A stretch of 64,000 nucleotides of DNA from positions 1 through 64,000 of the forward strand of contig CASFFZ010000001.1 in assembly GCA_949294095.1 (NCBI GenBank). Direction: 5' to 3'. A model generated the notes under the pieces. The model was given only the letters and a program-made list of their open reading frames with translations, was not told the DNA's origin and did not search any database. Positions 1,487 to 45,054 of the stretch are shown piece by piece (the stretch's first letter is position 1; each line of letters begins with the position of its first letter). This stretch comes from an uncultured bacterium. GTDB taxonomy: Bacteria > Elusimicrobiota > Elusimicrobia > Elusimicrobiales > Elusimicrobiaceae. Made by a program: the position numbers and the translations under genes.

Positions 1487-1617
1487 AGAAACCTTATTCT
1501 TTTTGTGCCTCAGCTTAGGTAACAAGGGCATTAAAGCCCGCAAAGGGGTTTACCCCCACTTACAACTTTATAAATCCTCAAACAGTATGAGTTGATCATA
1601 CGGTTTGGGGATTTTTG
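1487..1617 (+). ncRNA. tracrRNA
   Basis: The anti-repeat can pair with the crRNA repeat. Bases 1491-1501 pair with repeat positions 18-28 (11 bp), 1505-1510 with 10-15 (6 bp), 1516-1519 with 4-7 and 1521-1523 with 1-3, leaving small internal loops as in known crRNA:tracrRNA duplexes. Downstream are two small hairpins, GGGC(1526-1529)/GCCC(1536-1539) and GGGG(1545-1548)/CCCC(1553-1556), the usual Cas9-binding stem-loops. A strong terminator hairpin follows at 1576-1610. The RNA therefore overlaps the 3' end of cas2 on the other strand. Both ends are predicted. A shorter form ending near 1560 is possible. Confidence 0.85.
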
Positions 1618-1912
1618 TTTGCTGCAAGGCAGGCCCGTAGAAATTTTTGATTAAGCTATATTGTTTGTCCGTAATAAACAAAAAAGCACACTTGCCCTGG
1701 GGCGGGGTTTGCTCGCCCATTTGTTTTACCAGCGCCTGCGCTTGGTGCATAGTGGGCAGGTGGCGCACATATACCGAAAACTGCAACATACTAAAGCCGT
1801 TGCGCAGCAACAACTTGCGAAATCCGGCGTACCGTTTGCGCTGGATTTTGGTATGCGTTGGCAAATCAAACACCGCAACCACCCACATAATGCGCCAGCT
1901 ATTGGGTTTCAT
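1568..1912 (-). CDS. cas2: CRISPR-associated endonuclease Cas2
   Basis: At 114 aa this is the normal size for type II Cas2, the structural partner of Cas1 in the spacer-integration complex. The ferredoxin-like core shows the first strand VVAVFDLP with the conserved Asp, followed by LLRNGFSMLQFSVYVR, typical of type II Cas2. The start overlaps the end of cas1 by 14 nt, so the two are translationally coupled, and it is the last gene of the cas9-cas1-cas2 operon. Its C-terminal codons double as the terminator hairpin of the convergent tracrRNA, which may constrain the residues near PYDQLILFEDL. No csn2 or cas4 follows, which supports subtype II-C. Confidence 0.95.
   Translation of the reverse strand: MKPNSWRIMWVVAVFDLPTHTKIQRKRYAGFRKLLLRNGFSMLQFSVYVRHLPTMHQAQALVKQMGEQTPPQGKCAFLFITDKQYSLIKNFYGPALQQTKIPKPYDQLILFEDL
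1576..1620 (+). terminator. tracrRNA terminator inside the cas2 3' end
   Basis: Arms 1576-1590 and 1596-1610 form a 15-position stem (one A/G mismatch, one G-U pair) around loop GTTGA. It is followed on the plus strand by ATTTTTGTTT. The whole hairpin lies within the final codons of cas2, which is read from the opposite strand. Confidence 0.75.
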
Positions 1913-2882
1913 CGGAAAACGAGTCGGCCTGCCACAGCACAGCGGAAGGCATTTTGCCCGGGCGGGCGGGTTGATTGGGCAGAATTAATTTGCGGCGGGG
2001 GTCTTCTAGGCTTAAGCAAAAGCTGTTTACCGCAAAGTCTACGCCGTGGAATAAACGGTAATTTTTTCCGGCGAGGGGCACTTCGCTGGCCAGCAAGGAA
2101 GACAACAGTTGTTTTTTTACTTCTTTATCAAACCTTTCCAACGGGCTATCCTGCGCCAAGCGCCAAACAATCACGTCCGCCAAAAAACGGAAAGGTTCTA
2201 TAAAATCATCCGCCAAATTGAAGGGATTATCTTTGCGGTAGTGCCCCACACCAAAATTCAGGCACAGCCCGGCGCAAGCCAAACTGCGGGCTATCATCGC
2301 CCGCAAAATCGCATAGCCGTAATTCAGGGCGATATTGGCAGGGTCTGTGGCGCCTTGTTTATCCCTAAAATCTATGGGGTTGCAAATCGCCGCAAAGAAG
2401 GCGGGCCAATAGGCTTGAGCGGCTTGTGCTTCCCGCGCGGAAGAATCGCCCGGTTCCACGTGGGCGGCCAACAGCCGCAGGCGTTGCGCTAGGGCTACAT
2501 CAAAATGTTCCGCCACAAAGGCTTGGCCCCGGATTTTGGCCGCTACCAACTGTTGCCACCATTGCTGGGAGGCTGCCGCATTTAAGTGTTTGGCTTGCAG
2601 GAAGGAACGCTTGGCCCCTTCCAAATTGCTCCCCAGCGGCAGGGCCATACTGCACGGCATGTATTTTTCCCCCGCGCATACCACCACGGCACCTTGCCGC
2701 GCCAATTCCTGAAACACCGCCAAAGACACCCGAATACACGGATGAGCCAGCACCAGCACCGCAATATCGCAGGCGGCTATAAAATGCGTTTCTTGCGTTT
2801 TGGCAAAAGAAATTTTAAGCCGCCCCGTATCCACGGAAAGCGAGGCTTCCCGCTCTATACTGATCAGATGTTGTATGCTCAT
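1899..2882 (-). CDS. cas1: CRISPR-associated integrase Cas1
   Basis: The 327-aa protein is the integrase subunit of the Cas1-Cas2 adaptation complex that inserts new spacers at the array. Metal-ligand positions are visible: E151 in SAREAQAAQAYW, H214 in NFGVGHYRKDN, and D226 and E229 in NLADDFIEPFR. The N-terminal beta-rich domain spans roughly residues 1-85 and the helical catalytic domain follows. The start overlaps the cas9 stop by 4 nt (ATGA), so it is co-translated with cas9, and it overlaps cas2 downstream. Length and the absence of fused domains are ordinary for type II-C. Confidence 0.96.
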   Translation of the reverse strand: MSIQHLISIEREASLSVDTGRLKISFAKTQETHFIAACDIAVLVLAHPCIRVSLAVFQELARQGAVVVCAGEKYMPCSMALPLGSNLEGAKRSFLQAKHLNAAASQQWWQQLVAAKIRGQAFVAEHFDVALAQRLRLLAAHVEPGDSSAREAQAAQAYWPAFFAAICNPIDFRDKQGATDPANIALNYGYAILRAMIARSLACAGLCLNFGVGHYRKDNPFNLADDFIEPFRFLADVIVWRLAQDSPLERFDKEVKKQLLSSLLASEVPLAGKNYRLFHGVDFAVNSFCLSLEDPRRKLILPNQPARPGKMPSAVLWQADSFSDETQ

Positions 2883-5800
2883 TCGCGTTTTAATTTTGAG
2901 ATGTCTTGGCGCGAAGATACCACCTTATAATTTTTTAATTTTGAAATCACAAAGGTTTTTCCTGTGGTTTCCGTAGTAGAGAGGAGCAAAATTCCATCTC
3001 TGGCGCTAAATTGTTTTATCCGATAAAACTGTTTGGTAACGGTATCAAACAGCGTATCCCCGATAAACACGCGCGTCACGCCTTCCGGTACGGTTTTGCA
3101 GGAAGCATACTTCCATATCGGTATCAACGCCACGCGCTTGCCGGTTTTGGCGTCAAAATCCATACAGGCATATCCATAGTTTTGGTAGGCTTTCTGGTGT
3201 GTTTTTCCGCCCTGGTCGGCCGTAGTGATTTTTTTGTCGGCATTCGGGTCAAATTCCCGAATTCCGCGGCCCACCAAATACATATACTTCACCTGTTTTA
3301 CTTTATGGCCGCGGTAATAAATGCCGTCCTGCGGGTCGTTTTTGCGGCCGCAAAGGGCTTCTTCCGCCGTCATTCCCTGGTCCAAGCGCTGCTGGAATTG
3401 TTCCAATATCACTTGTTTAATCGTATCGGAAAATAACAGTTTATCCAAATTGGCCTTGGTCTTTTGCGCATCGCCTTTGAGAAAACTGCTTAAAGGCGCA
3501 CGCTTTACAAAACGTTCCGTGCCGTCTTTTTGCTGCACATTGTAGGCAGTTTCGTCAAAGAATTTACCGGCGGGCAAACGATCCGGCTTGTGCCACACCA
3601 CATAATCCGTCAGTCGTTTTTTTACTTCCTCCCAAATGGCCGCATACTGGGGGATGTTTTCCGGCATAAAGCCGAGGATGTCTTTGGTTTTATCGTGTGT
3701 GCCGTCGGCATTTATCCACTCTATGGTATGCAGAGTACCGTATTTAGCATTGTGCCGGGCAGCCCGCTGCACCAGGGACAAGTTGCACAACCCAATCACA
3801 GCCGCATCCACCGCGTGGTGGCGGTGGTCGCAACGTTTGTTAAATTGCAGCTGGGTGCGTTGCTCGCGGCAAAAGGCTGCAAAGCATTTTTGTTTGTCCT
3901 TGGGCGTCAGCGGCGGCGTGGGCAGAGAAGCGCAAAATTTTCCAAAATCTTCCTGCAAGGCCGGGGCCTGGTCGTACGGAACGGCATGGGCGGCATAAAG
4001 CTCCTGCCATTTGGCGGGGTCTATTTCGTTGTCGTCTTTATCATACAGCGGCTTATGTTCCGCTATCCGCACCAGCGGCAAAATGCGGTCAAAGTGCAAC
4101 TGGGAGCGCATATACGCCGTCAAGCCGCCGTAGGAAGGGGTGACTTTCGGGCAGATGTCCTTGCACCAATCCAACACGATTTTGCCAATCCAGGCAGTTT
4201 CCTGGTTTTGGCGGTTGGAAAAATCCTGCTTTACTTGGGCGGGCGTAGCCAGCAAGTTATTAATTTTGCGCAAAATCCGCGCGCCCTTTTGCGTGGGCTT
4301 GCGTTTGTGTTCCCGCGCAGAATAGTAGCCGCCTTTTTCTTTATTGTACAGCATCCATAAATGCGAAACGAAATTAATCAGCGGGCTGTGGTTGCCAAAG
4401 GAGCCGCCGGCGTCTTCGCCTTTTTTGCGTTTGGCCTTTTTGTCTTTTTGGAACGCCAAATAGTCTTCTACATCCTGCCGAAATCTCCATTCGTAGGGCA
4501 AGCGGTTGGATTTATCTTTGTTCTCCTGCGTGAGTGCCAAGACTTTATTTTCAAATACGTTTGGCCCCGGGATTTCCCCCCGCTGCGGAATGATGTGGTC
4601 CACTTGCGTTTGCCGTTCGTCAAACGCCTGCGCGAACGAAATTGGCTGGCCGCTGTATGGGCACAGGTGGTTTTGCTCCTCCCAGAGCAGGTATTTTTCT
4701 ATATTGCGCGGGCTGACCAACACGTGGCCTTGCTGCAGCGCGGCGATGGCTTTTTTGCGTTCGTCGGCCTGCAGCCTGTTTTGGCCTTCCAGCCACTGGC
4801 GGCGGCGCAGGGAATTTTTGATTTCCCGCGAAAGTTCTACCACGATTTCGTCCGGTTGAGCGTACTTGTGGACGATGTAATTCAGCACGCGGTAAAATTC
4901 GGCTAGGGCACGGCTCATTACCGGGTCATTGATAGATTCCTGCTTTTTAATAGCCTCTACCGATCGCAACTTGCCCCGCAAAGCCGCTTGCGGCGGCTGG
5001 ATACGGGCCAGCAAATCGGTTTCGTCCTGCCCTTGCAAGATGCCGTCAGTCAGCAAACGCAAAGCTTTTACGCTGTAAGAAGCCCGGCCCTTTTCCAACG
5101 TGAAGGACAAAAAGACTTGCTTCTTTTTCAATGCGCAAATAAAGTCTATCCCGCGCTGTCGCTCGGATGCGTCGGCCGAGATATTGCGGGTTAACTCCAC
5201 AAAACTTTGGCCGATATATTCGTCCGTATTGTCCTCAATATCCGAAAACGTGGTAATGTTGGCCAAAAATTCGATCACCAACTCCTGCACTTTATCCGTC
5301 AAGTTTGCCCACTCGTTCAGCACGCCGGCCTGTTCAAAAGCAAACAGTGTGGTGTTGCCTTTTAACCCTTGTTTGGTGCCGTTTTTGCGGTCAATGGTAA
5401 ACGAAACATCAGAGGGCAGCGACAAGGCTTGATAAATTTTGGCAAACGGGATCATCGCACTGTCCGCCGTATAATCGCCGGTGGAACTGTCTACATAGTT
5501 AAAAAGCTGCGTTTGCTGGGCCAAGGTAAGCGGATAGGATTCCTTTTCGCCTTTTTTGGCAAGCCGCAAGTTGGCAATATCTTTGGCCAACCGGTAATGC
5601 TGATAGGCTACCTGGGCGCAGGCAGCGCGCTTTTCCTGCGGGAAGAGCGGACAGGCGCCTACATTTTCCAGCTCCCATTTAATGGGGCGTTGGTAAAACA
5701 GGGCGGAGTGGAAGGCGTCTTTAAGCGGAATTTCTTTTTGGCCGGGGAAATCGGGGAACATATTTCCCCCCCACACGGCGTAAGTACCGCGCAGCTGCGG

Positions 5801-6427
5801 GTGGTAAGAGCTTTGTTTGTCGTAAATGCGGTTAAATTCTTCTTCCACCATTTGGCGGTAAATAAATGTGCCGTCTTCTTCTATTTTGCGCCAAGGGTTC
5901 CCTGCGCTGGCTTGTTTACGCTCATAGAGCAACTGCCCCAACGTTTTGCCGTTGGCCAGCTGGGACGACGTTTGGCTTAATTTTTTGCCGATGGCGCCCC
6001 GCTCCTCCGCGCTTAACGTGCCTTTGTAGCCGCGGTTTTTAACGATATGGCAAAACACTTTAATCAGCTGCGGCAAGCTGAGTTCGTCTTCCACCGCTTT
6101 GGCACGCAAGGCAATTACATCCTCTTTATCCGCCAATAAATCATCCCGCGTAACACCCAACGACTCGGCCATATATTTGATTTTGCGCAAGCGGGCCGCT
6201 TTACGCTCAATTTGCTTGCGCATGAGACGTGCAGCGCGGCGGGCCGTATTAAGGGTAACCATTTCTTTGGGCGCAATGGGTTCGCCAAAGATATAACTAT
6301 CTAAATGAAGTAAACGCGTGATATTTTTATCTTCGTCCAATTCATATACGGCCGTACCAATGGAAGATGTTCCCAAATCTATACCTAAGCGGTAGGATTT
6401 TCCCGCCAGACTTTTGCTGATTGCCAT
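2879..6427 (-). CDS. cas9: CRISPR-associated RNA-guided endonuclease Cas9 (type II-C)
   Basis: A 1182-aa Cas9 that cuts DNA matching the crRNA spacer when loaded with crRNA:tracrRNA. RuvC-I is at residues 13-28 with D17 (GIDLGTSSIG). The Arg-rich bridge helix spans about 61-85, and the REC lobe runs to about 500. RuvC-II contains E531 (EIVVELSRE). The HNH domain has D610, H611 and N627 (QVDHIIPQ, ENKVLAL). RuvC-III has H871 and D874 (HHAVDAA). The remaining ~300 residues are the PAM-interacting region. All catalytic residues are present, so both nuclease sites should be active. Length is within the compact-to-medium II-C range. It is the first gene of the cas operon, with GGGGGA upstream of the ATG as ribosome-binding site. 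The PAM cannot be read from the sequence. Confidence 0.98.
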   Translation of the reverse strand: MAISKSLAGKSYRLGIDLGTSSIGTAVYELDEDKNITRLLHLDSYIFGEPIAPKEMVTLNTARRAARLMRKQIERKAARLRKIKYMAESLGVTRDDLLADKEDVIALRAKAVEDELSLPQLIKVFCHIVKNRGYKGTLSAEERGAIGKKLSQTSSQLANGKTLGQLLYERKQASAGNPWRKIEEDGTFIYRQMVEEEFNRIYDKQSSYHPQLRGTYAVWGGNMFPDFPGQKEIPLKDAFHSALFYQRPIKWELENVGACPLFPQEKRAACAQVAYQHYRLAKDIANLRLAKKGEKESYPLTLAQQTQLFNYVDSSTGDYTADSAMIPFAKIYQALSLPSDVSFTIDRKNGTKQGLKGNTTLFAFEQAGVLNEWANLTDKVQELVIEFLANITTFSDIEDNTDEYIGQSFVELTRNISADASERQRGIDFICALKKKQVFLSFTLEKGRASYSVKALRLLTDGILQGQDETDLLARIQPPQAALRGKLRSVEAIKKQESINDPVMSRALAEFYRVLNYIVHKYAQPDEIVVELSREIKNSLRRRQWLEGQNRLQADERKKAIAALQQGHVLVSPRNIEKYLLWEEQNHLCPYSGQPISFAQAFDERQTQVDHIIPQRGEIPGPNVFENKVLALTQENKDKSNRLPYEWRFRQDVEDYLAFQKDKKAKRKKGEDAGGSFGNHSPLINFVSHLWMLYNKEKGGYYSAREHKRKPTQKGARILRKINNLLATPAQVKQDFSNRQNQETAWIGKIVLDWCKDICPKVTPSYGGLTAYMRSQLHFDRILPLVRIAEHKPLYDKDDNEIDPAKWQELYAAHAVPYDQAPALQEDFGKFCASLPTPPLTPKDKQKCFAAFCREQRTQLQFNKRCDHRHHAVDAAVIGLCNLSLVQRAARHNAKYGTLHTIEWINADGTHDKTKDILGFMPENIPQYAAIWEEVKKRLTDYVVWHKPDRLPAGKFFDETAYNVQQKDGTERFVKRAPLSSFLKGDAQKTKANLDKLLFSDTIKQVILEQFQQRLDQGMTAEEALCGRKNDPQDGIYYRGHKVKQVKYMYLVGRGIREFDPNADKKITTADQGGKTHQKAYQNYGYACMDFDAKTGKRVALIPIWKYASCKTVPEGVTRVFIGDTLFDTVTKQFYRIKQFSARDGILLLSTTETTGKTFVISKLKNYKVVSSRQDISKLKRE

Positions 6428-44109: not shown

Positions 44110-44688
44110 ATGCAAGTAAAAATAAACATTGACGGCGGTTCCCGCGGCAACCCCGGCCCCGGCGCCGCGGCGTACGTGATCTGTTCCCTAGATGGCGCCA
44201 TACTGGCGCAGGAAGGGCACTTTATGCCGCATTGCACCAATAATCAGGCCGAATACACCGCCCTGAAGCTGGCTTTGATTAAAGCCAAAGAACTGGGCGC
44301 AACGGAGCTTTTTATTCAATCGGATTCGTTGCTTTTAGTTAAACAATTTTTAGGCGAATACAAAATAAAACATCCGGACTTGGCGGCCCGCATGGCCGTC
44401 ATCCGCCGCCTGGCCGCCCCGTTTACCATTCATATGCAGCATGTGCTGCGCCACCTCAATAAAGCGCCCGACGCCTTGGCCAATAAAGCCATGGACGCCA
44501 AGCAGTCCGTCGGATTTAATCCTATCGTCCGCCTGCCGCAGGACGAAGAGCTCCCCCCCGCCCCGCGGGAAAATATCGTAAACGGTGTAGAAGTAAAACC
44601 GGTACAACGGCAAACCGCCCCGGCCAAACCCGCTTCCAAGCGCACCCTCAAAAAGCCGCACCAACCGGACTTGTTTGGCGAGCTGTAA
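44110..44688 (+). CDS. rnhA: Ribonuclease HI with C-terminal clamp-binding motif
   Basis: 192 aa. The RNase H fold covers residues 1-130 with the four acidic catalytic positions D8 (NIDGGSRGNPG), E48 (NNQAEYTAL), D72 (IQSDSLLLV) and D121 (NKAPDALAN). It degrades RNA in RNA:DNA hybrids. A Pro/Lys-rich flexible tail (about 135-184) follows and ends in HQPDLFGEL. Residues 185-189, QPDLF, match the pentapeptide by which DNA polymerases and repair proteins bind the beta sliding clamp. The promoter of rnpB overlaps the last codons. The HBD domain of eukaryotic RNase H1 is absent. Confidence 0.88.
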   Translation: MQVKINIDGGSRGNPGPGAAAYVICSLDGAILAQEGHFMPHCTNNQAEYTALKLALIKAKELGATELFIQSDSLLLVKQFLGEYKIKHPDLAARMAVIRRLAAPFTIHMQHVLRHLNKAPDALANKAMDAKQSVGFNPIVRLPQDEELPPAPRENIVNGVEVKPVQRQTAPAKPASKRTLKKPHQPDLFGEL

Positions 44689-44705
44689 CCGCTTTTTGCT
44701 ACAAT
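44675..44705 (+). promoter_or_regulatory. rnpB promoter
   Basis: TTGGCG (44675-44680) and the extended -10 TGCTACAAT (44697-44705) are separated by 19 bp. The -35 lies in the last codons of rnhA. The predicted start agrees with the 5' end of helix P1 at 44711. Confidence 0.65.
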
Positions 44706-44710
44706 AAGAA

Positions 44711-45048
<338 letters not shown>

Positions 45049-45054
45049 CTTTTC

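Follow-up and report, generated by a model that had tools for sequence, protein, structure and literature searches.

A conserved C-terminal motif on the RNase HI of Elusimicrobiales is a candidate tether to the beta clamp

The RNase HI gene, its catalytic core and its tail

The window (the whole stretch of DNA that was analysed, 64,000 nucleotides) carries on its forward strand an rnhA-like gene whose product joins an RNase H core to a C-terminal extension, with the gene for RNase P RNA directly downstream. The features of this locus are as follows.

44110..44688, forward strand: rnhA-like gene encoding RNase HI of the Rv2228c/haloarchaeal subtype with a C-terminal extension (open reading frame, Pfam, NCBIfam, Foldseek)
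44110..44499, forward strand: RNase H catalytic core, residues 1-130, with D8, E48, D72 and D121 invariant (Pfam, AlphaFold, Foldseek)
44500..44661, forward strand: Pro/Lys/Ala-rich linker, mostly unstructured, residues 131-184, with length and sequence differing widely among relatives
44662..44676, forward strand: putative beta-clamp-binding motif Q185-P-D-L-F189 (conservation, synonymous spellings, Q-x-x-L-F rule of PMC11139829)
44677..44685, forward strand: post-motif residues GEL, often acidic in relatives
44710..45052, forward strand: rnpB (RNase P RNA, class A), directly downstream, a conserved neighbour outside the proposed mechanism

The open reading frame starts with ATG and encodes 192 amino acids, the last of which are HQPDLFGEL; the C-terminal sequence reads ...KKPHQPDLFGEL, and the longer stretch before the stop codon reads ...SKRTLKKPHQPDLFGEL. 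Residues 3-127 matched the Pfam families RVT_3 (E=2.6e-16) and RNase_H (1.2e-6), both above cut-off, and this frame is the only match to PF00075 in the 1.48-Mb genome. The core was modelled by AlphaFold as a confident RNase H fold (pLDDT ~98), and Foldseek matched it to RNase HI structures with E values down to 1e-13, the alignment being confined to the core. Among NCBIfam models and solved structures alike, mycobacterial Rv2228c-type and haloarchaeal RNase HI come closest. These enzymes (PDB 3hst and, from Halobacterium, 4e19) are the closest in both solved fold and core sequence but differ from the window's protein in that the matches cover the core only, and the Rv2228c-type proteins (model NF005567) are acid phosphatase fusions rather than proteins with a clamp-motif tail. 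The catalytic residues D8, E48, D72 and D121 showed no variation in an alignment of 46 homologues, and the fold together with these D-E-D-D carboxylates makes the protein a type 1 RNase H; it does not have the fold of the type 2 enzymes (HII/H2). Given this intact core, the RNase HI of the window is, as far as its sequence can tell, a catalytically competent enzyme.

The first-pass annotation had placed QPDLF at residues 185-189, within a terminal HQPDLFGEL and at the end of a flexible Pro/Lys-rich tail, and the translation and the predicted structure agree with both statements. Tails of the window's protein and of its relatives are rich in Pro, Lys and Ala, and residues 141-192 have pLDDT values of ~58-79 with regular structure almost absent. 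Linkers of Elusimicrobiales RNase HI range from 13 to 109 amino acids, and their sequences diverge freely and do not align. The distance from the motif to the C-terminus is always 0-5 residues, and the motif is often followed by acidic residues or by the free carboxylate (none, DGF, GDL, DDF, EDF and DLNNL were found after it). As a separate observation on the linker (44500-44661), an [VI]NGVEVxPV element, for which short strands are predicted, is kept in the window's genus and occurs in 54 of 150 alignment rows, all from that genus.

Conservation of the terminal motif and its fit to the clamp

Of 107 distinct RNase HI homologues from Elusimicrobiales, 103 had a terminal Q-x-x-L-F followed by 0-5 residues, a count of distinct proteins and not of independent occurrences. 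Within the 103, Q, L and F are invariant by construction, these rows having been chosen by the pattern, and the fraction of 107 is the real test. Taxon labels of the relatives (Elusimicrobium, Elusimicrobiaceae or Elusimicrobiales) were taken from public records. The first-pass annotation had named absence of the motif from close relatives as an observation that would overturn its proposal; the motif is instead kept in the window's genus, in other genera of the family and in a second family of the order, all on divergent linkers. Variants include QPDLF, QPSLF, QPELF, QLELF, QLDLF and also QLNLF, the last three being shared out among many relatives. Within the window's genus, tails end in QPDLFGEL, QPDLFGDL, QPSLFDGF, QPSLFD and QLDLFGDL, among others, and in other genera of the same family they end in QLELFDLNNL, QLELF, QLTLF and QGNLF. 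Proteins of the second family have cores ~50% identical and unrelated tails, which stop immediately after RQPELF, KQPGLF, HQPKLF, KQEELF or SQSDLF. In a core-domain tree of 150 rows, both Elusimicrobiales families formed one group with a support of 97; Q..LF was found in the last 14 residues of 103/107 rows inside this group versus 3/43 outside it. The four exceptions comprise L020, in which the motif Gln is replaced by Pro (PPSLF), and L098, L099 and L161, which have lost their tail ends. The 3' end of the L098 gene holds a near-perfect palindrome where relatives have the motif; it resembles a repeat whose insertion abolished the tail end.

RNase HI from other classes of the phylum has no tail and stops at the core, and none of 79 viral RNase HI homologues carried the motif, even when a looser pattern was included. 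On these grounds we rejected a phage origin for the clamp tails of RNase HI, as well as their widespread occurrence.

Peptides that bind the bacterial clamp follow the rule Q-phi-x-[LM]-[FL], in which position 2 is tolerant with Leu as the best residue, position 3 is free with a slight preference for Asp, position 4 is Leu and position 5 is Phe; the tightest-binding pentapeptide known for the beta clamp is QLDLF, and acidic residues or a carboxylate at the flanks are favourable (PMC11139829). The fit to this consensus claimed at first pass extends across the homologues, whose tails match the rule position by position: positions 1, 4 and 5 are conserved and positions 2 and 3 are free, with D, E, S, K, G or N at position 3. 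Position 2 is mostly Pro or Leu; the QL lineages thus have the aliphatic residue that the rule asks for, whereas the QP lineages, which include most of the window's genus, are atypical. In the QPLLI motif of E. coli MutL, Pro is believed to exclude Gln from subsite II (PMC11139829). By this comparison Pro at position 2 is suboptimal, and the affinity of the QP motifs may therefore be modest. As expected of a clamp-binding protein, the motif lies in an accessible segment in which Q, L and F recur throughout the order, and it is conserved by selection in orthologues.

The clamp encoded in the same genome offers a matching peptide pocket. Compared with E. coli DnaN, the own-genome DnaN (L175) keeps most pocket residues (R152, L155, T172, G174, R176, L177, F241, P242, V247, N320, Y323, V360, M362 and P363) and differs at H175G, R246Q, V344S, S346P and M364V. 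Pol IV of this genome ends in PGRQLWFDF, a hexameric clamp-type motif, indicating that this organism probably does make use of the DnaN pocket. DnaE (L177) has an internal clamp motif, TGNLF, at the position of E. coli QADMF, and since Gln is absent from it, this residue is not universal among the genome's clamp partners. MutS has no C-terminal QxxLF, and RNase HII, a separate gene product, is without such a tail.

Alternative readings of the conserved tail

A chance resemblance in a low-complexity tail would be the simplest account of the motif, as the pentapeptide Q..LF is common genome-wide and the DNA pattern for QLxLF has 154 sites in this genome. However, shuffling the window's tail placed Q..LF in the last 14 residues in 0.25% of trials, and shuffled tails of the 107 Elusimicrobiales homologues gave 0.3 matches on average (maximum 3) versus the 103 observed. 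The motif is also conserved across families whose linkers are unrelated, and a match was seen in just 2 of the ~480 long open frames from the same fetched DNA that are unrelated to RNase HI, both apparently spurious (the scan of long frames returned five matches, three of which were RNase HI copies). Chance was rejected on the strength of the conservation and the tail shuffles, and we give it a negligible probability. Alternatively, the 3' end of the gene may be conserved for a DNA or RNA signal such as an rnpB promoter, with the peptide as a by-product. In the window, rnpB starts 22 bp past the stop codon of the RNase HI gene, and it lies downstream of this gene in 16/20 sampled relatives; its promoter could overlap the gene end. 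This reading is nevertheless highly improbable. Q, L and F of the motif are spelled by 20 different synonymous codon combinations across the homologues, with CAA and CAG about equally frequent and with all six Leu codons and both Phe codons in use, and selection therefore acts on the peptide. Moreover, the spacing between the stop codon and conserved rnpB sequence ranges from 28 to 109 nt, promoter scoring at the gene 3' end revealed no sigma-70-like promoter, and the motif is kept in L110, L119, L133 and L142, in whose fetched downstream DNA rnpB was undetected. Synonymous variation and variable spacing together rule out an rnpB promoter or other DNA-level constraint. Judged from these alignments, the terminal Q-x-x-L-F is under strong protein-level selection across Elusimicrobiales. 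The rnhA-rnpB gene order itself (window 44110-45052) is conserved across the order and seems to reach other families of the class.

A further reading is that the conserved tail docks, as a strand or short linear motif, on some protein other than DnaN, such as another replication or RNA-processing factor. A C-terminal QLxLF can indeed differ in role, as illustrated by a second locus in the same window.

1568-6427, reverse strand: type II CRISPR-Cas locus with cas9 (1182 aa), cas1 and cas2
1568-1912, reverse strand: Cas2, with C-terminal DQLILFEDL, beside type II cas9 and cas1

Among the fraction of the QLxLF genome sites that was read in frame, only cas2 encoded the motif at the C-terminus of its product. 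The C-terminal strand of Cas2 joins the beta sheet of Cas1 in type II Cas1-Cas2 complexes (PMC6620040), and DQLILFEDL is probably such a Cas1-docking strand, although it may have a dual role; it follows that a conserved motif of this kind is not, taken alone, proof of clamp binding. The case for RNase HI is nonetheless stronger than that for Cas2, in that Q, L and F alone are fixed and sit on a free linker, whereas the Cas2 tail is fixed in length with conserved flanks. Three fixed residues at the end of a very variable disordered linker are the hallmark of a short linear motif and fit the clamp rule, and the own-genome DnaN has the conserved pocket to receive them. We therefore consider a different partner for RNase HI unlikely. 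The Cas2 look-alike is kept in 12 close family sequences, with more distant ones ending in EQLQFW or EQLLLF. Three further species-level genomes of the genus encode a Cas2 with 100% identity to this one, a pattern suggestive of recent horizontal transfer.

Proposed clamp tethering and its known counterparts

The best explanation of these data, and in our judgment a very likely one, is that the RNase HI is active and is held on the beta clamp by the clamp-binding motif at its C-terminus. In the proposed mechanism, the terminal Q-x-x-L-F would dock in the hydrophobic peptide pocket of DnaN, and the docked enzyme would stay tethered to clamps on DNA, including those left on the lagging strand. 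RNase HI held in this way could act at the fork or behind it on Okazaki primers, R-loops or ribonucleotide tracts, cutting their RNA, with the disordered linker giving it reach in the manner of Pol IV or of archaeal RNase HII on PCNA.

Comparable recruitment is known from several systems. E. coli RNase HI is recruited by the C-terminal tail of SSB (Petzold 2015, Wolak 2020, reviewed in PMC11253446), and in both cases a type 1 RNase H would be brought to the replisome through a short linear motif; the motif in E. coli, however, is on SSB and binds the RNase, whereas here it is on the RNase and fits the beta clamp. The clamp route may replace or supplement the SSB route. Since the own-genome SSB still ends in DDVPF, the two routes could coexist. 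Bacterial Pol II and Pol IV (PMC11139829) likewise carry their motif at the extreme C-terminus, as Gln-x-x-Leu-Phe or in the hexameric form, but on polymerases rather than on an RNase H. Archaeal RNase HII (A. fulgidus) and eukaryotic RNase H2 are bound to PCNA through PIP boxes (PMC3504372, PMC11731006), in A. fulgidus by a motif that follows a flexible hinge, and they resemble the arrangement proposed here in using a short motif as a sliding-clamp tether. They differ in pairing a type 2 enzyme with PCNA, in contrast to a type 1 enzyme with bacterial DnaN. The likeness to RNase H2 drawn in the first-pass annotation is thus sound as an analogy and fails as an identity of enzyme type, the window's enzyme being type 1. 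The type 2 enzyme of E. coli, RNase HII, does not bind its clamp (PMC11253446).

Clamp-tethered RNases H are therefore already known as type 2 enzymes on PCNA in archaea and eukaryotes, and what appears to be new here is the type 1 enzyme with a bacterial clamp motif. The first-pass remark that such a motif is not known as a standard feature of bacterial RNase HI is in keeping with the largely open-access literature searched, in which we found no report of one. If binding is real, it would constitute a direct link between clamp and RNase HI in bacteria that is absent from the E. coli and B. subtilis models, and each of the three domains of life would have an RNase H anchored to its sliding clamp, through convergent short motifs carried by RNase H types that are unrelated. 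Three tail residues would then provide a simple separable mutant for the role of RNase HI at the fork, through which primer removal, R-loop clearance and ribonucleotide repair could be distinguished.

In evolutionary terms, we think it reasonably probable that the RNase HI of Elusimicrobiales, once a diffusing or SSB-recruited enzyme, has been rewired into a nuclease that removes primers and R-loops while tethered to the clamp, making it an independent type 1 counterpart of PCNA-bound RNase H2. The sporadic occurrence of terminal Q-x-x-L-F in other families of the class suggests that tethers were gained, or lost, more than once. Three proteins from outside Elusimicrobiales (L153, L156 and L171) have short tails whose last residues are QGLLF, QAELF or QGELF, and these terminal motifs may either have been gained separately or be what is left of an older tether.
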